Shown one piece after another: positions 2,093 through 30,299 of a stretch of DNA of 45,838 nucleotides. Within the stretch, counting starts at the first letter, position 1. Each line of letters begins with the position of its first letter. The DNA is from Methanothrix sp. (lineage in GTDB: Archaea; Halobacteriota; Methanosarcinia; Methanotrichales; Methanotrichaceae): assembly GCA_025361645.1 (NCBI GenBank), contig JANYKI010000077.1:1-45838 (forward strand), in the 5' to 3' direction. The position numbers and the translations under genes were made by a program. Below the pieces are notes generated by a model. It was not told where the DNA came from, made no database searches, and saw only the letters and a list, made by a program, of their open reading frames with translations.

Positions 2093-3460
2093 TTATCTTT
2101 TAATGGGGCACGTCCTCGATTTCCAGCCGGCCATGCCTCCTAAAATGACGGCCAGTCTCTTCCAGCCCCGCGCCTTTAGAAAGCTTGCCGCCACCATGGA
2201 TCGCATGCCGCTGCCGCAGAAGACGTATACTTCCATATCTTTAGGCACCTCGTCCAAACTCTTTGCGATAGCAGTAATGGGAATATGCTGTGCTTTGTCG
2301 ATTTTGCCGTCTCTCTCAAGCTCGCTCTCGGATCTGACATCCAATATCCAGATCGGATCACCCTCATCCAGCAGGCGGCAGAGCTCTTGCACGGTAAGCG
2401 TTCTGATGGCAGACGACTCCAGTCCGGACATATGCCAGTTCAGCATGCCTCCCGCCAAAAATCCGGCGATGTCATCGAACCCCAGGCGCAGGAGAATGGC
2501 AGCTATGTTCTCGACAAAATTGCCCTCGCCAACGAGAAGAATGGGCCGGTCGTAGCTAAGAAACCAGCCGGCAAAGCTGGCTAAACCCTCCAGCCAGATG
2601 GATTGAGAGCCAGGAACGTGAGCGGCCCCGAAGGCCAGCTCCTGGCGCGTGTCCAGAATCTGAGCATTCTGCTTCTCGGAAAGGGCAAAAAAGCTCTTGG
2701 CATCCAGGGGCTGAGGGGACGGCAGGGCTCCCAGAATCGGCCTGCCTTCCAGATTCACCTTTTCCATGCGGCGGAAATAGGGAGGCCTATCCAGCTGGCT
2801 CTTTAACATTGAGGCCACAAACTGCTCTTGGCTCTCCTGCAGCCTGGCATTGTGCTTTTTCTCTAGACCAATGGTAGTCCAGAGACGCTCGGCAATTAAC
2901 TCGCCGCACACCGAGCCGGACCCATGCGCCGGGCAGAGGATGACCTCGTCGCCCAGCGGCAGCAGCCGCTTGAAGAGGCTCTCGTAAAGCAGTCCGGCAT
3001 TTTCCGCGGCCAAATCTTTGCCCATCAGATCGATTCTGCCCACCTCTCCGGCAAAGAGGGTGTCCCCGCAAAAGAGCATCCAGGGAATGCCGGACGGATC
3101 GCGTAGCAGGTAACTCATGCTTCCCGGAGTGTGGCCGGGCGTGGCAATGGCCTCGACCTCCAGGCGGCCCACCTTCCATTTCTGGCCGGCAGTGACAGGC
3201 CGTCCGTACTGGTATTCCCATTGATCGTCGGCATGCCAGACCTGTGCCCCCGTCCGTCCGGCCAGCTCCATCGATCCCACAAAATAATCCTCATTCCTGT
3301 GCGTCTCCAGGACGTAAGCAATCCTCATGCCCGCCTCGGTGGCCATTTTTATATAGTCATCAACGTCTCTTCTGGGATCAATTACCAGAGCCTGGTTCTT
3401 GTCGCCTACCAGATAGGAGTAATGAGCAAGGCCTGCAGAGACAATCCTTTCCAAGAGCAT
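2093..3460 (-). CDS. MBL-fold hydrolase with two rhodanese domains
   Basis: This 455-residue fusion starts with a metallo-beta-lactamase-fold domain (about 1-240), related to persulfide dioxygenase and glyoxalase II. Two rhodanese domains follow (about 255-350 and 360-450). The MBL domain keeps GHTPGS, FCGDTLF and PAHG, but its first metal motif reads THRNEDY (residues 53-59) instead of THxHxDH. Two histidine ligands are therefore replaced, by Asn56 and Tyr59. The first rhodanese domain lacks an active cysteine (VGEGN). The second has CGSGMRS with Cys415. The likely role is handling sulfane sulfur or persulfides, but the substrate cannot be read from sequence. The protein has no signal peptide and is probably cytoplasmic. 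Confidence 0.85.
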   Translation of the reverse strand: MLLERIVSAGLAHYSYLVGDKNQALVIDPRRDVDDYIKMATEAGMRIAYVLETHRNEDYFVGSMELAGRTGAQVWHADDQWEYQYGRPVTAGQKWKVGRLEVEAIATPGHTPGSMSYLLRDPSGIPWMLFCGDTLFAGEVGRIDLMGKDLAAENAGLLYESLFKRLLPLGDEVILCPAHGSGSVCGELIAERLWTTIGLEKKHNARLQESQEQFVASMLKSQLDRPPYFRRMEKVNLEGRPILGALPSPQPLDAKSFFALSEKQNAQILDTRQELAFGAAHVPGSQSIWLEGLASFAGWFLSYDRPILLVGEGNFVENIAAILLRLGFDDIAGFLAGGMLNWHMSGLESSAIRTLTVQELCRLLDEGDPIWILDVRSESELERDGKIDKAQHIPITAIAKSLDEVPKDMEVYVFCGSGMRSMVAASFLKARGWKRLAVILGGMAGWKSRTCPIKR

Positions 3461-18300: not shown

Positions 18301-19107
18301 ATGGACTCTAACTTTGTGCGCTCACTACAGGAAAAGGCCAGAGCCAGGCACGCCCGCATCGGCATCGGCATCTGGAATGCAGACGCAGAGCTGATCGCCT
18401 CCCTGCAGTCTGCCACAGAGTATGCCGATCTGCTCCTGGTGGGCGATCCGTGTTGCGACTGTACTCTCGATTACGTCGCCTGCAAAGAGCCCTGGAAGGA
18501 GCTGGTGCGCCTTTTGGCCGAGGGCGAGATCGATGGTGCGGTGAGGGGGAACCTGCCCGCGGGAAGGACCATGCGGGCCGTTGCAGAGCAGTTTCAGATC
18601 CGCGTGCGGCGTCTGGCCCTGCTGGAGCTGTCCGGCTGGGCCTTCCTGCTGGGGCCGGTGGGCATCGATGAGGGCGAAACGGTGTCGGACCGCCTCGAGC
18701 TCTTGCTGGGGGGTGCGAAATTCCTGCAGGACATGGGCCTGCTGCCCAAAGGGGCCGTGCTCTCGGGCGGGCGGATGGAGGACATGGGCCGGTGCGAGCG
18801 GGTGGACCGAAGCCTGTTGGAAGGAGAGCTGATCGCAGCCCGGGCAGAGGAAGCGGGCCTGCAGGCTCGCCACAAAGGGATACTGATCGAGAGCTGCCGG
18901 GGAGACGACATCGTCATCGCACCCGATGGCATTTGCGGCAACCTCATCTTCCGCACACTATTACTATTATGCAAGGCTTCGTCCTATGGCGCGCCGGTGC
19001 TGATGGACAAGGTCTTCGTGGACTCCAGCCGGGCCAGGGGTGGGTTCGACGGGCCGGTGATGCTGGCGAGTGCCATGACGGGGATGAGGGAGATGGATAG
19101 GGAATGA
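18301..19107 (+). CDS. mtxX: Methanogenesis marker protein 4 (MtxX)
   Basis: This 268-residue methanogen marker is related to phosphate acetyl/butyryltransferases. Recognised features are DGAVRGNLPAGRTM, LLGPVGIDEGE and the C-terminal APDGICGNLIFRTLLLL and GFDGPVMLASAM segments. The biochemical role is unknown. Some members were reported as methyltransferase-associated, but without proof. The gene directly follows marker 2, separated by one base. It is the intact source-like copy for five degraded fragments further along the window. Those fragments share sequence features with one another that this gene lacks. Confidence 0.87.
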   Translation: MDSNFVRSLQEKARARHARIGIGIWNADAELIASLQSATEYADLLLVGDPCCDCTLDYVACKEPWKELVRLLAEGEIDGAVRGNLPAGRTMRAVAEQFQIRVRRLALLELSGWAFLLGPVGIDEGETVSDRLELLLGGAKFLQDMGLLPKGAVLSGGRMEDMGRCERVDRSLLEGELIAARAEEAGLQARHKGILIESCRGDDIVIAPDGICGNLIFRTLLLLCKASSYGAPVLMDKVFVDSSRARGGFDGPVMLASAMTGMREMDRE

Positions 19108-19406: not shown

Positions 19407-22400
19407 ATGTTCCCTGGGTTAACTTGTCGCATATTCCTACAGGCCATCATGGCCTTTATCCACCAGATATTGGGATTTGTTGAGGATATCGGAATAGATC
19501 ATCATGATGCCCCATCGAATCCGGTAAGGATGTCTGCCTTGCATGATTGGCCTGAAGACGTCACGCCGAATACATCCAATCAGGTGCTTTCGTTGTCGCG
19601 CTTGATTTATAGGAAAACTGGTTTTCTGTGGGCGGTGCTTCGTGTTTCTGTTCTCGTTCTGTTGATCAGTGCCACATGGACCGGCACGCTAGCCGCCGAT
19701 CTTGCCCAACCGGAAGGAGCAATGAATGCGACAAACGCGATAAATGCCACAACACCTGAGAACATGAGCCAGGGCGCGCTCACCCATGCGCGCGAGCCCT
19801 TAACGGAGCACGGGCCGTTTGAGCGAGAAGGGATGGATGGACCCCAGAACAACAGCGTAAAAGACTATGCCCAAATCAATAATAACTCGATCATCAATAA
19901 TGAGTCAATCCAAGCCACCATGCTCAAATTGCCTCTGAGTTTCATTGAAAACAAAGGCCAGTCGTCCCCTGATGTGAAGTTCATGGTCAAGACTGCCGGA
20001 CAAACTGTATTCTTTACCCCCTCGGAGGTCGTTTTTGCACTATCCAGCGGCAATAATTCCTCAGTTGTTCATATGGCCTTCAAAGGGTCCAGGCCAGGGG
20101 AGATAACGGGCGAGCAGCCGCTCCCAGGCAGAGCCAACTTCTTCATCGGCAATGATTCGTCCAGATGGTCGACCGAGGTCCCAACCTATGGAGCAGTCAG
20201 GTACAAAAACCTCTATCCTGGAGTAGATCTTGTCTTCAAAGGCACAGAAGCCCAACTGAAGCATGAGCTAGTCCTGAGTCCTGGAGCAGATCCAGCCCAG
20301 ATAGTTCTTTCCTATAGCGGCCAGGATAACCTGAGTCTTGTCGAGGGCGGATCTGTGCTGATAAGAACTGCTGCAGGGAACATAATGGATTCTGCGCCTA
20401 TTTGTTACCAGGAAATCAATGGCAGCAGGGTAACGGTTGAAGTGCAGTATCGACTTATTAAAGGCCAAAGAATTGGTTTTGAAATTGGAACCTATGACAG
20501 AAGATATCCATTGGTGATCGACCCAGCATTGGTTTATTCCACTTACCTTGGGGGAAGCGGCCAAGACTATGGCCGCAGCATCGCGGTAGATGGTAGCGGC
20601 AACGCCTATGTCACAGGATTTACAAAATCAGCCAACTTTCCAACAAAAAATCCCATGCAGGCATTTAATGTCGGTTGGGATACCGATTGGTATGACGTTT
20701 TCGTCATCAAGATCAATGCGGCTGGTACCGCATTGGTCTATTCCACTTACCTTGGAGGAAGCAGCGATGATGTTGGCTACGGCATCTCAGTTGACAGCAG
20801 CGATAACGCCTATATCACTGGAAAAACAGATTCGACCAACTTCCCGACCCAAAACCCGATACAAGCGTTGAATGTCGGTATTAATGACGTTTTTGTCACC
20901 AAGATCAATGCGGCTGGGTCGGCCTTGGTCTATTCCACTTATCTTGGAGGAAGCAGCGATGAACATGGTTATGGCATCGCAGTTGACAGCAACGGTAACG
21001 CCTATGTCACCGGATTAACATCGTCAACCAACTTTCCAACCCAAAACCCGATACAGGCATTGAGCGCCGGTACGTATGACGTTTTTGTCACCAAGATCAA
21101 TGCGGCTGGGTCGGCCTTGGTCTATTCCACTTACCTCGGAGGAAGCGTCAACAATAACTATGGCATCGATGATGGCGGCTTCGGGATCGCAGTTGACAGC
21201 AACGGTGACGCCTATGTCACCGGATTAACATTGTCAACCAACTTTCCAACCCAAAACCCGATACAAGCATCGAATGCGGGAGGCCCTGACGCCTTTGTGG
21301 CTGTTTTGAGTTCCTCTGATCCTACTAATACGGTGGATGTTTGTCATCAGGGATGTGAGTATACCAGTATCCAGGCTGCTATAGATGCCGCGAATCCCGG
21401 TGACACAATCAATGTCGGAGAAGGCACTTACACGGAGAACTTGCACATCGACAAGTCGTTGACCATAAAAGGGGCCGGAGCAGGCAAAACCATCGTAGAT
21501 GGCAATCATACTGGCCCGGTATTCACCATCGAGAAGGGTGATCCAAATATTGACGTCTATCTAAAGGATATGCTCATTCAGAATGGCATTGGTACGTTGG
21601 ATTCAGGCTCTGTTCTCGGCGGTGGCATTTTAAATAAAGGTACGCTCACAGTTGACCACTGCACTATCCAGAATAATGGATACTACACGAGTCCTTGGGG
21701 CTCTACCCCAGGAATATATGGCGGTGGAATTTACAGTTCAGGATATTTGACCGTAACTGATAGTACTATATCAAATAACGAAGCTTCTTGCGGTGGCGGG
21801 ATATACTTAGATAATTCTGGAAAATTGCCTCTTGAATTGAAAGCTGAAATAACGGATAGTACAATCTCAAGTAATGATGTACCAAGCGGTGGCGGTGGTA
21901 TATTCAACTCTGGTGGAGATCTGACATTAAAGGATAGCACGATCTCTGGAAACGGGGGTGGATATTGGAGAGGCGGGGGAATTGTGAATACCGGCAATTT
22001 AGAAATGGTTAGCGGAACCATATCAGGGAATGGGGCTTCTGGTAATGGTGCTGGCGTTGATAATTATGGCACCTTCACGATTAAAGGTGGCACCATATCC
22101 GACAACACCGCCAGCGCTGGCCCAGCTGGAACCTGGTATAACGGTCTAGGGGGCGGGATATACAACGAACAGGGAGGAATCTTGAACCTAGAAGGAGGCA
22201 GCATCAGTAGTAACCACGCCTATGATGGTGCCGGGATATACAACTTTATGGGAACGTTGAACCTAAACGGGGGCAGCATCAGTGGTAATATAGCTCCGCA
22301 TAATGGTGGAGGGATATACAGCTATGACTACAGAGGCACTGTGTTCATCGGCGGAACGACCCAGATAATAAGCAATGAGGCTACACAAGGCTATGGCGGA

Positions 22401-25400
22401 GGGATATACAGCAGCGACTCACTAATTACATTCGATGGCACAGAAGTTGCCGTGAAATCCAACAAGGCACTTCTGCCTGATATGCTTCCAGCTGAAACCC
22501 CATGGTATCAACAGTATGGTGTGTACATGGGATCAGGTAGCCCGACCACGACCAATGGATTCGATCCGGCAATGCAAGTGACGGATAACACTCATATCAC
22601 CTCGAACATAGGCGGGCGTGTCTGGGATGATGCCAACTACGATGGTGTAGAAGATCCAGAAGAGGAGGGGATTCCGGGATCTACTGTGAATCTATACAAC
22701 GCTGGAGGAACAAATCCAATCGCTACAGTAACTACTGATTCCAATGGGTATTATAGTTTTGATATATCCAAAATTAGCAGCATCGCTAGTAAGCATAGCG
22801 CCCCAGGTATCACTTTAAATGATTTCGTGGTGGAATTCAAAGGGATTTTAAATAGCATTGGCAGATTATTTAGCCCTAAAGATAAGGGTGCAGATGGTAC
22901 AAAGAATAGCCATGCCAATGTCGATAATGGAAAAACCGATACTATAGAAGTAACACCAGATAAAAAAGAAATCGTTAAAAATGCAGGCTCAACGGAAGCG
23001 CCAAAGCCTATTATCAAGGATTTTAATATCAAAGGAGGACTAGCAGATTATGATAAGAATGGATTCAAGGTTTTTCGGAGAGGAGATGATGACCCGACAT
23101 TTGAAATAGATGCATTAGTGCCTGATAGCATATGCTATTTTTATGTTTGGATTTATAAAATTGAAGGAAATAAGGAAATCTATTGTGGCAAAGCGCCAGC
23201 AATTAAAGATGGAGATAAATATACAGCTGTCTGGGAATGGCTATGCGAGGATAGCAAAGGGAACTGGCGCGAAATACCTAATGGAATTCCAGCAGGTAAA
23301 TACAAAGCAAGGGCAAGGATAACATATCCAGCAAATGGACCAGATTTAACAACTCCCAAAGAAGAAATATTCTATGTGATATTTAATAATAAGGGTGTTG
23401 ATGAATGTTTTACCTTAAATCCAACGGAATACAATTACTATGCAGGACATTCAGGAACATGTGTGTATTCTGATAGGTTAGAGGACCTTGATGAAAATCT
23501 TGGTGGAGAAATCTCGTATGCACTTAATATATTTAATCCAAAGATATTTAACGTGGCCATCGAGCTGATAGATGGGCAAACCTCACCTGAAGTTGCAGCG
23601 AATTTATTAAGAGCGAAAGTTACACCTATGATAAAATGGAACAAAAACCCTGACTTTGACCAAGATACTTTGGTTTACGATCCTAATAAAATAGATCAAA
23701 AAGGGCAGTGTTTCGATTATGCAAATGTTCTAACCGCCTATTTAAGATCAGTAGGCATACCTTCTCGTACGGTAACTACTACTTGGTTCGGGGATAAATG
23801 CTTAAAAAATTCGGATAGACCACAAGGAATTTATTATTTCCATTGCTGGACAGAAGCAATTTTAAAAGGAAGTTTATTAGGCTCAATTGATGATTGGTAC
23901 GTGCTAGATTCGATAAGGGCATGTCGCCTTACAACTGATGCAATCTTGCCACAGGATTATTGGGATAGCCATTTAGAGAATTTGGATAATAAATTAAATA
24001 AAAAGGATTCTATGGCGTGGGCAGCCATCTCCAATAAGGTAATATGCGATGATAAAAAGAACGTTATCCATGATTCAAAAGATATTAAATGCGATCATTA
24101 CCAAAACTGTCCGTTATCGCCGAATTATGAGTCCAACAATTGTTCTATTGGAATATATCCTGCATTAGATAAACATGACTATATTTTAGGTGATGATATA
24201 TCAATAAACCTTGAAGTCAGGAACATGGGCGACCTAAGTTATGCAAATTCCTACAACATGACCGTCACTCAATATTCCGAGGAAAGCGAAATGAGCGAAT
24301 TTAGATTGCCTGTTGAATTATTAAATATTAGTAGTTATATTAATATACCTTCAAAGAGATCTATCAATATTTCCTATAATCTTACTCCCGAGGAATATAA
24401 AACAAATGGCCACTATGTTATCAATGCATGGATAAACGAAACTTGCAAAGGATTCGCAGAGTTCGATATTAATAGTGGCTTAGATGTCTCAGTTTCAATA
24501 CCATCAAGCGTTAATATAAATAACGAATTTAATGTATCTTTGAGCATCAAAAATATATTAAATAAAACTGTAAGGAACATATCTATAGCAGCCAATTTTC
24601 CTTCCGATTCTGGCTTGATTGGTGATTCAGATTTCGCAATCAAAGGACTTGCCCCTGGTGAAATAGTCAATAAAACGTGGTATCTCAATATACCTACCGC
24701 TGGGGGACGCACAATTGGATTTAATGTATTCTCCAACGATACCGGATTCAATAAGGTATATCCAGTGATAGACGTCTTGGAATTGCCTGAACTCTATATC
24801 GAATCTGGAAGTATTCCTTTATCTGAAGATCACAAAATACCGTTTGAAGCTGATTTCAAGGTTAAAAATATAGGCGATCTGATAGCTTCCAATGTTTCCG
24901 CAAGGATAATTCTGCCTGAAGGCGCAACGTCTTCAGAGACTATGTGGGATATTGGAGATCTAGATGGCGGCGAAAATGTCACACTTCAAATGAACATTAC
25001 TCTAACCAAGCCAGAAGATGCTGTTATTCATGTACTCGCATCAGATAGTGCCGGACATAATGCCTCCAGCATAATTTATATAAATGTGTTATCAAACATC
25101 TCTGCGACCTTTGATCCCATACATTCTGATCTTGGTCTAGACGTAAACGACGATGCCAAGTATGATTATTTAGTCACTGAGGTAGGAGTTAATGTAACCG
25201 AATCTGGGCTTGGCAGGGCAGAAGGATGGCTATGTGACAGCAATGGAAATAACATAACAAAAGCCGAAAATAGCTCATATTTATTCACAGAGAATAAATT
25301 GATATTTTTAAAATTCTCCGGAATAGATATATTTAAGCACGCCATGAATGGCCCTTACATCATAAAAGATCTAAAGCTATTCAATGATAGTGGCGCAATA

Positions 25401-28400
25401 GTAGATGATGTGAGCCCTGCCTATAGCACTTCGGCGTACAACTATACAGAATTCTGTCCCATAATAAGGCTAACTGGTAACTATTCAGATCAAGGCAATG
25501 ATACTGATAGCGATGGCTTATTTGATGAACTAACTTATGGGATAGAGATAATCCCAAACATAGAAGGTTATTGCTTTGCTATAGCAAAATTAGTTGATAA
25601 AAATGGAACTCAGATTGCTGTTGCACAAAATACTACATGGCTATCTGCAAACCAGCTCGGGATTATGCAGCTCAATTTCGAAGGCAGAAATATTCGAGCC
25701 AACAAGGTGGACGGTCCGTACTACCTGAAAGATGTATACGTCTATCATACGGCTGACCTCAATCATCCCGATTCAGCTATTAATGCGTATACAACGAGAG
25801 CTTATCGCTATCTGGACTTTGAAGGATACGGTCCCTCGATATCCGGATTAAAGTTCAATGATATGGATGGCGATGGTGTGAAGGGTACCGATGAGCCAGG
25901 AATTCCTGGCTGGGCGATAGAACTGGCTAAGCCCGATAATACCACGATAACAACATCTACAGACATTAATGGCACTTATAGCTTCGATGATATCGTGCCG
26001 GGCACGTACATTTTAAATGAAGTGCCCAAGTTGGGCTGGATTCAGACGCTCCCTAAATCGCCGAATAATTATACCATTGAGATTGCAAATACAAGTGTAA
26101 CCGATAAGAATTTTGGGAATATAAAGATCAATTTTTCGGTCTCAGGAACTAAGTTCAATGATGCCAATGGAAATGGTGTGAAAGACAACGGCGAGCTTAG
26201 CCTGCTCGGATGGACCATTAAGCTAAATGGATCTGATGGAACAAGTCTCACTGCAACTACCGATGCCAATGGGTCATACAAGTTTGAGAACTTATTAGCT
26301 GGCAACTATACCTTAAGCGAGGAAATCCTGCCATCTTGGATTCAGACATTTCCTGCAGCACCAGGGACTCATACAATTATGATCTCAGATGCTGATGTTA
26401 CAGGAATAGACTTCGGCAACCAGCAAAAAGAAAATGATCCGCCAAACACCCCCACCACCCCATCAGGATCGACTGCGGGCGTTCGAGGTATCGCCTGCAG
26501 CTATTCCACCTCCACCACCGACCCCGATGAAGATCAGATCGCATACACCTTTGATTGGGGAGACGGGGCGACCTGGCAGACCGATCTCGTCGATTCCGGA
26601 ACTAGCGCCAATGCAACTCATATCTGGAACAGTTCAGGAAAATACCAGGTCAGGGCCAAGGCCACGGACAGCAAAGGCGCATCCTCTGAATGGTCGGGCT
26701 TACTAAATGTCACCATAAACACCCCACCAAACACTCCCGCGATACCTTCCGGGCAAGCTTCAGGCATTCCAGGAACCTCTTACAGCTACTCCACATCAGC
26801 CAACGATCCCGATGGCGACCAGATCGCATACACCTTCGACTGGGACGATGGAACAACCTCGGTGACTAGTTTGGTTAATTCAGGTACAGTCGCAAGTGCA
26901 TCTCATAAATGGACCAATACCGGAATCTACCAGGTCAAGGCCAAAGCTACAGATAGCAAAGGCTTAGACTCAGAATGGTCGAATACAATCAGCGTTAGCA
27001 TAGTAAATAGACCTCCCAACGCGCCAGATACACCAATTGGAGTAGACGTGGGCTTTGCTTTGGCTCCCTACAGCTATGCTACCTCTTCAATCGATCCTGA
27101 CGGAGACCAAGTGAAGTACACTTTCAACTGGGGCGATGGAACAACCTCGGTGACCAGTTTGGTTAATTCTGGTACAGTTGCAAGTGCATCTCACACATGG
27201 ACCAAAGCCGGAACTTATCAGGTTAAAGCCAATGCCACAGACAGCAAGGGAGCCACTTCAGGATATTCAAGCATACTAACCGTCACCGTCAATCCGAACA
27301 AGTCGCCAAATGCTCCCGGCAAGCCTTTAGGATCAGCTAAATGCGTTGCTGGATCATCATATAGCTATTCCACATCAGCAACGGATCCTGATAAAGATAA
27401 AGTTAAGTATACATTTGATTGGGGAGATGGGAACAAATCGGAAACTGGTCTTGTCACGTCTGGTATAAAATCGAGTGCAATGCATGCTTGGAGCGTTGCC
27501 GGAACCTATCAGGTCAAAGCCAATGCCACAGACAGCAAGGGAGCCGTATCTGGAGACTCAAGTTCACTGACCATTATCGTCAATCCAAACAAGCCACCGA
27601 CAACGCCCAGCAAGCCTTTAGGGTCAGCTACATGCGTTGCAGGATCACTGTATATCTACTCTACGTCAGCAAAAGATCCTGATGGAGACACGGTAAAGTA
27701 CACCTTTGATTGGGGTGATGGGACCAAATCGGAAACTGGTTTGGTCACGTCTGGCATAAAATCGAGTGCAACGCATGCTTGGAGCACACCAGGAACTTAT
27801 CTGGTAAAAGCAAATGCAACGGATTTCAAGGGTGCCGTATCTGGATACTCAAGCTCATTAACTGTTACCGTCAATCCGAACAAGTCGCCAAACGCTCCCA
27901 GCAAGCCTTCAGGATCCGCAAAAGGTTATGCAGGAGTGGCTTACAGCTACACCACATCAGCAACCGATCCTGATAAAGATCAAGTTAAGTATACATTCGA
28001 TTGGGGTGATGGAACAAAAAAGGATACCAACCTGGTAAATTCTGGGACAAAATCGAGCAGTACACATGCATGGAGCGCGGCCGGAACCTATCAGGTTAAG
28101 GCCAATGCCACGGACAGCAAGGGAGCTGTATCTGGATATTCAGTCTATCTATCCGTTACGATAAGTCCAAATGGCGTTCCAGGCACGCCGTCTGTCCCGT
28201 CAGGCGCAACGTTGGGCAAGATCAAAAAATCCTACAGCTATGCAACATCGGCAACCGATCCAGATGGAGATAAGCTGAAATACACCTTCGACTGGGGCGA
28301 TGGGAAAACCTCCGTGACAAGTTTAGTCAACTCTGGAACAAGCGCAAGCTCATCTCATGCATGGAGCAGTGCAGGGGCGTATCCGGTTAAAGTCATGGCC

Positions 28401-28469
28401 ACGGATAGCAAAGGGGCTACCTCTATATCACAGTCGAATCCGCTGACAGTAATGATAACCTTAAGCTAA
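19407..28469 (+). CDS. Giant secreted multidomain surface protein (SBBP, beta-helix, transglutaminase-like, SdrD_B, PKD)
   Basis: This 3020-residue protein is probably exported. A hydrophobic segment at residues 72-96 ends in an alanine-rich cleavage-like site, after an unusually long N-terminus. Next come an ENKGQ/FFTPSEVVFAL domain (about 175-370) and four SBBP beta-propeller repeats (about 376-632). Then a right-handed beta-helix rich in NGGGIY (645-1065) and an SdrD_B domain (1069 on) follow. A transglutaminase-like domain carries Cys1435, His1479 and Asp1501. CARDB-like sandwiches, two more SdrD_B domains (from about 2144 and 2244) and seven PKD domains (2344-3020) complete it. No C-terminal anchor is evident. 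It is likely a sheath or adhesion protein. The GAGG site before the ATG supports the start. Confidence 0.85.
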   Translation: MFPGLTCRIFLQAIMAFIHQILGFVEDIGIDHHDAPSNPVRMSALHDWPEDVTPNTSNQVLSLSRLIYRKTGFLWAVLRVSVLVLLISATWTGTLAADLAQPEGAMNATNAINATTPENMSQGALTHAREPLTEHGPFEREGMDGPQNNSVKDYAQINNNSIINNESIQATMLKLPLSFIENKGQSSPDVKFMVKTAGQTVFFTPSEVVFALSSGNNSSVVHMAFKGSRPGEITGEQPLPGRANFFIGNDSSRWSTEVPTYGAVRYKNLYPGVDLVFKGTEAQLKHELVLSPGADPAQIVLSYSGQDNLSLVEGGSVLIRTAAGNIMDSAPICYQEINGSRVTVEVQYRLIKGQRIGFEIGTYDRRYPLVIDPALVYSTYLGGSGQDYGRSIAVDGSGNAYVTGFTKSANFPTKNPMQAFNVGWDTDWYDVFVIKINAAGTALVYSTYLGGSSDDVGYGISVDSSDNAYITGKTDSTNFPTQNPIQALNVGINDVFVTKINAAGSALVYSTYLGGSSDEHGYGIAVDSNGNAYVTGLTSSTNFPTQNPIQALSAGTYDVFVTKINAAGSALVYSTYLGGSVNNNYGIDDGGFGIAVDSNGDAYVTGLTLSTNFPTQNPIQASNAGGPDAFVAVLSSSDPTNTVDVCHQGCEYTSIQAAIDAANPGDTINVGEGTYTENLHIDKSLTIKGAGAGKTIVDGNHTGPVFTIEKGDPNIDVYLKDMLIQNGIGTLDSGSVLGGGILNKGTLTVDHCTIQNNGYYTSPWGSTPGIYGGGIYSSGYLTVTDSTISNNEASCGGGIYLDNSGKLPLELKAEITDSTISSNDVPSGGGGIFNSGGDLTLKDSTISGNGGGYWRGGGIVNTGNLEMVSGTISGNGASGNGAGVDNYGTFTIKGGTISDNTASAGPAGTWYNGLGGGIYNEQGGILNLEGGSISSNHAYDGAGIYNFMGTLNLNGGSISGNIAPHNGGGIYSYDYRGTVFIGGTTQIISNEATQGYGGGIYSSDSLITFDGTEVAVKSNKALLPDMLPAETPWYQQYGVYMGSGSPTTTNGFDPAMQVTDNTHITSNIGGRVWDDANYDGVEDPEEEGIPGSTVNLYNAGGTNPIATVTTDSNGYYSFDISKISSIASKHSAPGITLNDFVVEFKGILNSIGRLFSPKDKGADGTKNSHANVDNGKTDTIEVTPDKKEIVKNAGSTEAPKPIIKDFNIKGGLADYDKNGFKVFRRGDDDPTFEIDALVPDSICYFYVWIYKIEGNKEIYCGKAPAIKDGDKYTAVWEWLCEDSKGNWREIPNGIPAGKYKARARITYPANGPDLTTPKEEIFYVIFNNKGVDECFTLNPTEYNYYAGHSGTCVYSDRLEDLDENLGGEISYALNIFNPKIFNVAIELIDGQTSPEVAANLLRAKVTPMIKWNKNPDFDQDTLVYDPNKIDQKGQCFDYANVLTAYLRSVGIPSRTVTTTWFGDKCLKNSDRPQGIYYFHCWTEAILKGSLLGSIDDWYVLDSIRACRLTTDAILPQDYWDSHLENLDNKLNKKDSMAWAAISNKVICDDKKNVIHDSKDIKCDHYQNCPLSPNYESNNCSIGIYPALDKHDYILGDDISINLEVRNMGDLSYANSYNMTVTQYSEESEMSEFRLPVELLNISSYINIPSKRSINISYNLTPEEYKTNGHYVINAWINETCKGFAEFDINSGLDVSVSIPSSVNINNEFNVSLSIKNILNKTVRNISIAANFPSDSGLIGDSDFAIKGLAPGEIVNKTWYLNIPTAGGRTIGFNVFSNDTGFNKVYPVIDVLELPELYIESGSIPLSEDHKIPFEADFKVKNIGDLIASNVSARIILPEGATSSETMWDIGDLDGGENVTLQMNITLTKPEDAVIHVLASDSAGHNASSIIYINVLSNISATFDPIHSDLGLDVNDDAKYDYLVTEVGVNVTESGLGRAEGWLCDSNGNNITKAENSSYLFTENKLIFLKFSGIDIFKHAMNGPYIIKDLKLFNDSGAIVDDVSPAYSTSAYNYTEFCPIIRLTGNYSDQGNDTDSDGLFDELTYGIEIIPNIEGYCFAIAKLVDKNGTQIAVAQNTTWLSANQLGIMQLNFEGRNIRANKVDGPYYLKDVYVYHTADLNHPDSAINAYTTRAYRYLDFEGYGPSISGLKFNDMDGDGVKGTDEPGIPGWAIELAKPDNTTITTSTDINGTYSFDDIVPGTYILNEVPKLGWIQTLPKSPNNYTIEIANTSVTDKNFGNIKINFSVSGTKFNDANGNGVKDNGELSLLGWTIKLNGSDGTSLTATTDANGSYKFENLLAGNYTLSEEILPSWIQTFPAAPGTHTIMISDADVTGIDFGNQQKENDPPNTPTTPSGSTAGVRGIACSYSTSTTDPDEDQIAYTFDWGDGATWQTDLVDSGTSANATHIWNSSGKYQVRAKATDSKGASSEWSGLLNVTINTPPNTPAIPSGQASGIPGTSYSYSTSANDPDGDQIAYTFDWDDGTTSVTSLVNSGTVASASHKWTNTGIYQVKAKATDSKGLDSEWSNTISVSIVNRPPNAPDTPIGVDVGFALAPYSYATSSIDPDGDQVKYTFNWGDGTTSVTSLVNSGTVASASHTWTKAGTYQVKANATDSKGATSGYSSILTVTVNPNKSPNAPGKPLGSAKCVAGSSYSYSTSATDPDKDKVKYTFDWGDGNKSETGLVTSGIKSSAMHAWSVAGTYQVKANATDSKGAVSGDSSSLTIIVNPNKPPTTPSKPLGSATCVAGSLYIYSTSAKDPDGDTVKYTFDWGDGTKSETGLVTSGIKSSATHAWSTPGTYLVKANATDFKGAVSGYSSSLTVTVNPNKSPNAPSKPSGSAKGYAGVAYSYTTSATDPDKDQVKYTFDWGDGTKKDTNLVNSGTKSSSTHAWSAAGTYQVKANATDSKGAVSGYSVYLSVTISPNGVPGTPSVPSGATLGKIKKSYSYATSATDPDGDKLKYTFDWGDGKTSVTSLVNSGTSASSSHAWSSAGAYPVKVMATDSKGATSISQSNPLTVMITLS

Positions 28470-28605: not shown

Positions 28606-30267
28606 TTAATCCGAGGATATATTGATCATCAGCGAATTCGACCATCCTGATGTCGCTCCTTTATCATCTTGGGCCATGGCTTTGACCTGGTATGTTCCGG
28701 CCTGGCTCCATTTGTGAGATACGCTTTCCTTCTTCCCGGAGTCAATGAAGGCCAAACCTGTCCAGGAAGTTGTTTTATCTCCCCAGTCGAAGACATACTT
28801 GACCGGATCTCCATCCGGATCGTTTGCAGATGTAGCATATCTGTAAGTGGCCTTGCTGCGTCCAGAGGTCGGTCCCGCTGGTACGATGGGCGAATTGGGT
28901 GGATCATTGTCGCTGATAGTTACATTCATAAGATCCGTCCATCCTGATGATGCACCTTTGCTGTCTGTAGCGTTGGCCATAATCAGGTAACTTCCCGCTT
29001 TGGACCAGGTATGAGGTGCGCTTTCAACTGAGCCGGAATCTACTATTTCAGTAGTAGTGGTAGTCCCATCTCCCCAATCAAAGGAGTACATAACTTTGTC
29101 GCCATCGATATCCTTAGCCATTGTAAAGTAGCTGTGAGCGATTCCTGTGTAGCCAGAGCTCGGTCCGAATAGTTCCTTTGGCTTATTGGGTTTGCTGTTT
29201 GCATTAACGGTTACTGTCAAATTCCCAGACCAATTTGATGAGGCTCCTATCCTATCTCTGGCAATGACTCTGATCCGGTAGTCTCCTTCTTCACTCCAAC
29301 TGTGCACTGCACTTGCATTGCTCCCGGATCTGATCAGATTCGTACTGGATATATTTTCGTCTCCCCAGTCGAAGATGTACTCGGTTTCATCTCCGTCGGG
29401 GTCGGTTGCCAATGAAGTGTAAGTATATGCGGTCCAGGCATAGACCGATCCGGGGCCGGATGGTTTGGAGGGGTTATCAGGGGGAGAATTTATGATGACA
29501 TTTTGCGCCTCTGACCATCCGGAGGATGACCCTCTTTCGTCAACGGCATTGGCTCTGATCTGGTATGTTCCGGCTTTCTTCCAGGTATGATTCACGGTTG
29601 CTTTTGCACCGGAGACGAGAAAGCCGGTGATCGATTTTGTTCCATCACCCCAATCAAAGGTGTATCTCATCTGATCTTTGTCCGGATCAGCGGAGGATAC
29701 TGTATAATTATTGGAGATTTCAGGCCGGCTTGAAATTGGGCCGGATAGTGCATTGGGTTTGCCTGGCGGCGTATTTATGGTGATGTTGAGCGGCTTCGAC
29801 CATTCGGAGGACGCGCCCTTGCTATCGGTGGCAATGATTCTGATCTTATATGTCCCGGCCTTGCTCCAGGTGTGATTAGCGCTCGCAGCAACGCCCGAAT
29901 TGATGAGAGGCGTGTTCGATTCGGTTCCGTCTCCCCAATCGAAGGTGAACTTGACTTGATCTGCATCCGGATCGATGGCGTTGGTGGAATAGCTATAGGA
30001 TGCTGCAGGGACGCCATTGGCAGCTCCATTGGGGATAATCGGTATTTCAGGAGGATTATTATGAATTTCGACATAGATCAACGGTCCCGGCCAATAGGGC
30101 ACGATGCCCACGTACCCCGTCCATTGCAGTAATCGGCCTGCATTCAAAACGGATCCCGAGAAGGCACAACTCGCATTTTCTGAGGAAGCCGATCCTTGAG
30201 AAAATATGATGGATGACCATAGTAATGCCAATATGATGAAAAGCCTTATCGATTGGCCAAATGTCAT
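28606..30267 (-). CDS. Secreted five-PKD-domain protein
   Basis: This secreted protein of about 553 residues has a signal peptide (hydrophobic run ending near SQGSASS), a short cysteine-containing lead-in and five PKD domains with the FDWGD hallmark. No membrane anchor is visible at the C-terminus. PKD domains mediate protein-protein or surface contacts in archaeal envelopes. The ATG at 30267 is preferred to the GTG at 30276. A TATA-like box at 30300-30307 suits a short leader. The repeats closely resemble those of the convergent giant protein, so the two may act in the same surface structure or may have exchanged repeats. Confidence 0.85.
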   Translation of the reverse strand: MTFGQSIRLFIILALLWSSIIFSQGSASSENASCAFSGSVLNAGRLLQWTGYVGIVPYWPGPLIYVEIHNNPPEIPIIPNGAANGVPAASYSYSTNAIDPDADQVKFTFDWGDGTESNTPLINSGVAASANHTWSKAGTYKIRIIATDSKGASSEWSKPLNITINTPPGKPNALSGPISSRPEISNNYTVSSADPDKDQMRYTFDWGDGTKSITGFLVSGAKATVNHTWKKAGTYQIRANAVDERGSSSGWSEAQNVIINSPPDNPSKPSGPGSVYAWTAYTYTSLATDPDGDETEYIFDWGDENISSTNLIRSGSNASAVHSWSEEGDYRIRVIARDRIGASSNWSGNLTVTVNANSKPNKPKELFGPSSGYTGIAHSYFTMAKDIDGDKVMYSFDWGDGTTTTTEIVDSGSVESAPHTWSKAGSYLIMANATDSKGASSGWTDLMNVTISDNDPPNSPIVPAGPTSGRSKATYRYATSANDPDGDPVKYVFDWGDKTTSWTGLAFIDSGKKESVSHKWSQAGTYQVKAMAQDDKGATSGWSNSLMINISSD

Positions 30268-30299
30268 CTGGTGCACAAAAGAAAGAGTAGTAAGAATAG

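Follow-up and report, generated by a model that had tools for sequence, protein, structure and literature searches.

What does a transglutaminase-like catalytic triad do in the middle of a giant surface protein of a methanogen? The question is raised by a stretch of 45,838 nucleotides from Methanothrix sp. (contig JANYKI010000077.1 of assembly GCA_025361645.1, here called the window), in which a reading frame of 3020 codons stays open throughout from 19407 to 28469 on the forward strand. The genome contains one mcrA-type match and a DNA polymerase D, which points to a methanogenic archaeon or one closely related to methanogens; a DP2 polymerase query had no match among plasmids. Transglutaminase-like proteins perform transamidation, deamidation and hydrolysis by means of one triad. 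An earlier note on this DNA had assigned such a triad to Cys1435, His1479 and Asp1501 and had suggested that the protein modifies itself or the sheath. Judging from sequence comparison, residues from about 1196 to 1893 very probably constitute a transglutaminase-like module of the animal type.

The catalytic core and its flanking domains

The Pfam family Transglut_core matches residues 1384-1488 with 45.6 bits (expectation value, E, 9.3e-12), and its curated cut-off is 23 bits. The triad residues are found in the motifs KGQCFDY (C1435), YYFHCWT (H1479) and YVLDSIR (D1501). When residues from about 1290 to 1591 were compared by phmmer with the PDB, TG3 came first (E 0.008), followed by factor XIII and TG2, with E from 0.008 to 0.2; in all, 18 sequences had an E of 1 or less. 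In these alignments the three residues fall on the catalytic Cys, His and Asp columns of TG3-type chains. The triad is located where the earlier note had put it within the 3020-residue frame, and the neighbours that it described are present as well, with an SdrD_B domain (residues 1067-1192) before the core and Ig-like and CARDB domains after it. The score and the TG3 alignment also bear out its more general claim that a giant secreted or surface protein of an archaeon contains a domain of the transglutaminase superfamily whose triad is intact.

By homology, this domain is part of a unit larger than had been described, namely a predicted multidomain module of beta-sandwich, core and Ig-like domains that spans residues from about 1196 to 1893. 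With residues 1201-1591 as query, one other match (G121) was obtained among 392 genomes of the phylum. A two-row profile (A2) matched 12 of these 392 genomes and covered the beta-sandwich only in G000, G121 and G345. A scan of genome contigs found L020, from a metagenome-assembled genome (MAG) of the Desulfobacterales, in addition to contig L019, which is nearly identical to part of the window. The profile A3, which combines the window's module with L006, L009 and L020, matched three of 53 genomes in the order of G121, the third being the archaeal genome G259 (L050/L093). Among 395 genomes of the phylum to which L020 belongs, 26 matched, with the beta-sandwich covered only in L020's own genome. 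Core-only matches were left out for not covering the beta-sandwich; these concerned 9 of the 12 genomes found with A2 and 25 of the 26 in the phylum of L020. Seven scans of viral contigs revealed no relative, the phage and plasmid collections held no match to the window's module, and the plasmid collection held none to the module of L020. The genome's other two Transglut_core genes, L001 (453 residues) and L003 (231 residues), reach 9-10 bits against A3 and were placed outside the module family.

In all five modules (window, L006, L009, L020 and L050) the beta-sandwich ends with FYVIF, and the triad columns hold Cys in five of five, His in five of five and Asp in four of five. The window's module and L050 align in collinear pieces over residues 1284-1893, and the part from 1431 to 1893, which includes the Ig-like domains, scores 110-111 bits. 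L050 further contains a Transglut_N domain of 41.5 bits, above the Pfam cut-off of 27. This family is rare in the genomes searched, since only two of the 392 match it, one of them above the cut-off, and none of 14 control genomes does.

The proteins that carry two of these relatives are large as well. L020:245-5248 encodes a Desulfobacterales MAG protein of at least 1668 residues in an unbroken frame, in which the animal-type transglutaminase is combined with a C39-like peptidase domain and four repeats of the thrombospondin type 1 kind. L093:41-6040 encodes an archaeal protein of 2000 residues that has, besides the core and Ig-like domains, a full Transglut_N and a PKD-like domain.

Kinship with animal transglutaminases and possible function

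The link to the animal enzymes is carried by profiles. Profile A3 matches TG3 with E 1e-11, from inside the beta-sandwich through the core, and profile A7, built from all five modules, matches it in one unbroken stretch over chain residues 10-671, nearly the full length, with E 2e-19; A7 also matches beta-arrestins via the Ig part. L020 by itself aligns with TG3 in three collinear pieces that correspond to the N-terminal part, the core and the barrels (E 7e-16 for the whole sequence), of which the core is significant on its own and the other two depend on the whole-sequence score. The Ig-like domains of L020, which are homologous to those of the window, align with the barrels of TG3. With L050 as the only query, a match to TG3 is obtained in the beta-sandwich (whole-sequence E 1e-10).

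A number of results weigh against a close kinship or against an animal-like activity. A profile of the window's module, L006 and L009, without L020 and L050, matches TG3 with an E no better than 1.5e-4 and scores the bacterial transglutaminase-like structures 4fgo (E 1e-4) and 6g49 at about the same level; 4fgo is a periplasmic protein that we take to be the protease LapG. The window's beta-sandwich gives no Pfam match, and hhalign of the window-side against the L050/L020 beta-sandwich aligns weakly, over 28 columns only (probability 55). L050 reads Ala at the Asp column, so that the family is not always catalytic via the usual triad. The interval between Cys and His lacks an acidic EF-like loop, which the alignment of L020 does contain. 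Both AlphaFold models, finally, are of very low confidence: the predicted local distance difference test (pLDDT) score is 39.7 for the module modelled with L020 and L019 (A4) and 34.5 for the core modelled with L020 (A8). The order of secondary structure is plausible, but the models are too poor to be used for distances within the triad.

The tryptophans belong to the same set of adverse observations. Animal transglutaminases are described with tryptophan sites at Trp241 and Trp332 of TG2 (PMC6265872), and a passage in PMC13073648 calls Trp241 essential to oxyanion stabilisation. In the window's module the Trp332 site holds no Trp, and Tyr1476 sits three residues ahead of His1479. The Trp241 site likewise holds none, as the loop is short and no Trp occurs between W1411 and C1435. 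The nearest aromatic residues are W1411 and Y1424, with Y1424 the sole candidate for this site, whose alignment is uncertain. The alignment of L020 with TG3 places Trp on both sites. The indole of Trp241 is reportedly, from the title of a 2003 study, an evolutionary specialisation of eukaryotic enzymes, and the two tryptophans of the bacterial L020 are a lead that would bear on this claim.

The AlphaFold results could also be read as a sign that the Transglut_core match arose by chance, or is marginal, in a low-complexity adhesin with no such domain. We regard this as extremely improbable. Both models were made from only two to three sequences, and a poor outcome therefore says little, and the match, at 45.6 bits, is well above the cut-off of 23 and recurs in independent homologues with the same domain order, so that a chance match is refuted on sequence grounds. 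What the adverse observations do affect is the distance to the animal enzymes. Owing to the weaker profile without L020 and L050, the missing Pfam match of the beta-sandwich, the 28-column alignment and a Transglut_C match at the second Ig-like domain that stays below its cut-off (20.6 bits, E 5e-4, cut-off 26.6), the module is, as far as its sequence tells, related to the animal type but divergent from it, and not a member.

For the function, we tentatively favour surface acyl transfer, by cross-linking or deamidation, as the core is accompanied by the domains that flank it in animal transglutaminases. In this reading, His1479 and Asp1501 would activate Cys1435 for attack on a carboxamide, in a side chain or in the peptide, of some extracellular protein. 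The resulting thioester could be resolved by a lysine amine, giving a cross-link or attachment, or by water, giving a deamidated product. The repeat arms of the protein would keep the enzyme within the coat of the cell or the biofilm matrix. Secretion, acyl transfer, cross-linking and the substrates are all features that we infer. As the tryptophans are changed, a protease and a non-catalytic protein have to be weighed as well.

With the same triad and within the same superfamily, the module could instead be a cysteine peptidase or isopeptidase of the cell surface. Water would then resolve the acyl-enzyme, and peptide or isopeptide bonds would be cut, perhaps in proteins of the coat or matrix that belong to the cell itself or to its neighbours. 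This we hold to be possible, though rather doubtful. The animal tryptophans are not kept, and the profile without L020 and L050 matches 4fgo level with TG3, but the layout of beta-sandwich, core and Ig-like domains is that of animal transglutaminases and is not known from LapG or from the enzymes PeiW and PeiP. The superfamily does have proteases among its prokaryotic members, as well as PeiW and PeiP, two endoisopeptidases that act on pseudomurein (PMC2989375), but bacterial TgpA, which lacks the animal layout, is reported to be transglutaminase-active in vitro (PMC3507681).

A purely binding or structural role, in which the module turns nothing over and is kept for the surfaces of its beta-sandwich and Ig-like domains as an adhesive piece, seems unlikely to us. 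Erythrocyte band 4.2 is a precedent, being an inactive member of the family (PMC13073648), and the lost tryptophans, the Ala of L050 and the repeat and adhesion domains that make up the remaining protein would fit such a role. The window's module, however, has retained all three triad residues together with their GQC and FHxW surroundings, and a region of 595 residues is unchanged in L019, although the two sequences are too similar for this to demonstrate selection. Acyl transfer stays our preferred, if provisional, reading. The suggestion that the protein modifies itself or the sheath, by comparison, finds nothing in the sequence to support it, as no substrate is apparent, no sheath-protein family is matched by Pfam in the giant reading frame, the structural models are too poor to use, and the animal tryptophans are not kept.

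The host gene and the origin of the module

The module is embedded in a protein that otherwise consists largely of repeat and adhesion domains (Table 1). Contig L019 (JANYJS010000009.1, from another assembly, 5878 bp) matches window positions 20832-26709 at 99.7%. Among its 5878 bases there are 19 differences, 18 of them within 20834-21022, at the contig end in the SBBP repeats, and the remaining one, at 26063, is silent. Given this near-identity, the giant reading frame is no assembly artefact. L019 derives from the same species as the window or from a very close one, and the Bacillota label of its MAG is probably a binning error.

Table 1. Features of the giant gene and its neighbours, in window positions (residues refer to the 3020-residue protein)
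Feature	Residues	Position	Strand	Basis
Upstream neighbour gene		18301..19107	+	No Pfam match; kept at the same place in all ten stretches from relatives
Giant protein, presumably secreted or surface-located	3020 in total	19407..28469	+	Open reading frame; predicted secretion
Hydrophobic segment, likely signal peptide	71-96	19617..19694	+	Hydropathy highest at residues 71-90; placement of Met residues; putative signal peptide
DUF7948	179-373	19941..20525	+	Pfam, 210 bits
SBBP beta-propeller repeats	about 376-640	20532..21326	+	Pfam, 129 bits, 4 stretches; outer limits set by us
Repeat region, probably right-handed beta-helix	about 645-1060	21339..22586	+	Predicted fold
SdrD_B-like domain 1	1067-1192	22605..22982	+	Pfam, 142.6 bits over the whole protein (3 stretches)
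GC3-poor block	1081-2080	22647..25646	+	Two-breakpoint fit
Beta-sandwich corresponding to Transglut_N, ends FYVIF	1196-1327	22992..23387	+	Homology via L006, L009, L020 and L050, weak for the first half
Transglutaminase catalytic core	about 1328-1585 (Pfam 1384-1488)	23388..24161	+	Pfam, TG3 alignment and profile
Nucleophile Cys	1435	23709..23711	+	TG3 alignment
His	1479	23841..23843	+	TG3 alignment
Asp	1501	23907..23909	+	TG3 alignment
Ig-like domain 1	about 1589-1690	24171..24476	+	Homologous to L050 and L020
Ig-like domain 2	about 1692-1790	24480..24776	+	Weak Transglut_C match
Ig-like domain 3 (CARDB)	about 1794-1890	24786..25076	+	CARDB, 36.9 bits, above cut-off
Region without Pfam match	about 1896-2155	25092..25871	+	Not shared by module relatives
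SdrD_B-like domains 2 and 3	about 2157-2330	25875..26396	+	Pfam
PKD domains, 7 stretches	about 2335-3018	26409..28460	+	Pfam
Downstream PKD-protein gene		28606..30276	-	Directly after 18301..19107 in two relatives

GC content at third codon positions (GC3) is 0.505 before residue 1081, falls to 0.307 within residues 1081-2080 and returns to 0.462 thereafter. The two-breakpoint fit has a log-likelihood ratio of 45.9 versus at most 8.2 in shuffles, of which it beats 40 out of 40. The poor block contains the whole module and is placed between SdrD_B domains. None of the 59 other genomes searched (25 of the same genus, 11 of the same family and 23 of the same class) has the module; 43 of the 60 genomes in that set are counted as having a completeness of 90% or more and a contamination of 5% or less.

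Ten stretches that follow the conserved neighbour genes in congeneric genomes all lack the module. In two of these (G019 and G020) the PKD gene directly follows the gene at 18301-19107, and the giant gene is missing there. Three (L082, L083 and L087) break off in less than 5 kb, before the far side comes into view, and say little, and five (L081, L086, L088, L089 and L090) reach further without a PKD gene, which indicates absence near the neighbour genes and not an empty site. G004 encodes a relative of the N-terminal part, at 69% over 453 residues, in a protein of 1245 residues with a PKD part, recognised by eye, and without the module. The GC3-poor block, the absence in 59 other genomes and the gene missing at the matching site in two relatives together make it likely that the block was acquired from a foreign source. 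The simplest account is that a native repeat protein took up a foreign block, in which case beta-sandwich, papain-like core and Ig-like domains would have been inserted together between the SdrD_B domains of a secreted protein.

Some further observations concern the host protein. A start at M1 (19407) would put 70 residues ahead of the hydrophobic segment, and M42 (19530) is a likelier start. A NosD-type match at residues 655-759 has 43 bits, far under the curated cut-off of 300, and hints at a beta-helix. The region at 25092-25871, about 260 residues and mostly inside the GC-poor block, appears by eye to consist of two similar halves. The C-terminus of the giant protein showed no PGF/PEF-like motif, and a scan for promoters and terminators upstream of its gene found nothing.

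Comparison with known systems

According to the earlier note, such a surface protein would be notable in archaea. This holds in part only. Transglutaminase-like domains in adhesin-like proteins of methanogens have already been published, with two such proteins reported for Methanobrevibacter smithii and three for Methanosphaera stadtmanae (PMC11532034, Table 2), and what the present analysis adds is a probable archaeal multidomain module of the animal type, of which no report was found in the open-licence PMC literature. The proteins of M. smithii and M. stadtmanae resemble the window's in being surface proteins of methanogens with a domain of the transglutaminase superfamily. By their description, they differ in being shorter and in having the domain C-terminal, in group III beside pseudomurein-binding repeats, (PMC11532034), whereas the window's is internal and comes with a predicted beta-sandwich and Ig-like domains of the animal type. 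For the hoops of archaeal sheaths, passages in PMC11576556 and PMC10593813 mention disulfides, not isopeptide bonds.

If active, the module would provide a covalent way to build an archaeal cell coat. The five prokaryotic modules, which carry flanking domains beyond the core, also make the origin of animal transglutaminases testable. One may even imagine that cross-linking of the factor XIII type exists outside animals, with archaea and bacteria using the whole module in secreted repeat proteins that act on matrix or coat, that the animal enzyme is a late branch of a module moving between prokaryotes (or that the transfer went from eukaryotes to prokaryotes), and that a bacterial member has the oxyanion Trp held to be a eukaryotic invention. 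We consider this scenario improbable.

Among characterised bacterial proteins, TgpA of Pseudomonas aeruginosa (PDB 6g49) shares a Transglut_core with triad, and transglutaminase activity in vitro has been reported for it (PMC3507681). It is matched by A3, A7 and the profile of the window's module, L006 and L009 with E 3e-4, 1e-6 and 2e-4, respectively, but it is a membrane protein with DUF3488 and without the animal-type layout. PeiW and PeiP, which are presumably members of the transglutaminase-like superfamily, are prophage enzymes that cut, and they are set beside the window's protein by description only. Their likeness is that they are related to archaea and act on the cell envelope (PMC2989375).

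With the animal transglutaminases (TG1-7 and factor XIII A) the window's module shares the GQC and FHxW motifs and, as predicted from its homologues, the order of beta-sandwich, Cys-His-Asp core and C-terminal Ig-like barrels. It differs from them in the short loop before the Cys, which lacks the Trp241 site, in the Tyr at the Trp332 site, in having three Ig-like domains where the animal enzymes have two barrels, and in being embedded in a repeat protein of 3020 residues. L020 and L093/L050 show the same module of beta-sandwich, core and Ig-like domains. L020 is set apart by Trp on both animal sites and by its thrombospondin type 1 and C39 domains, and L050 by its full Transglut_N and the Ala at the Asp column.

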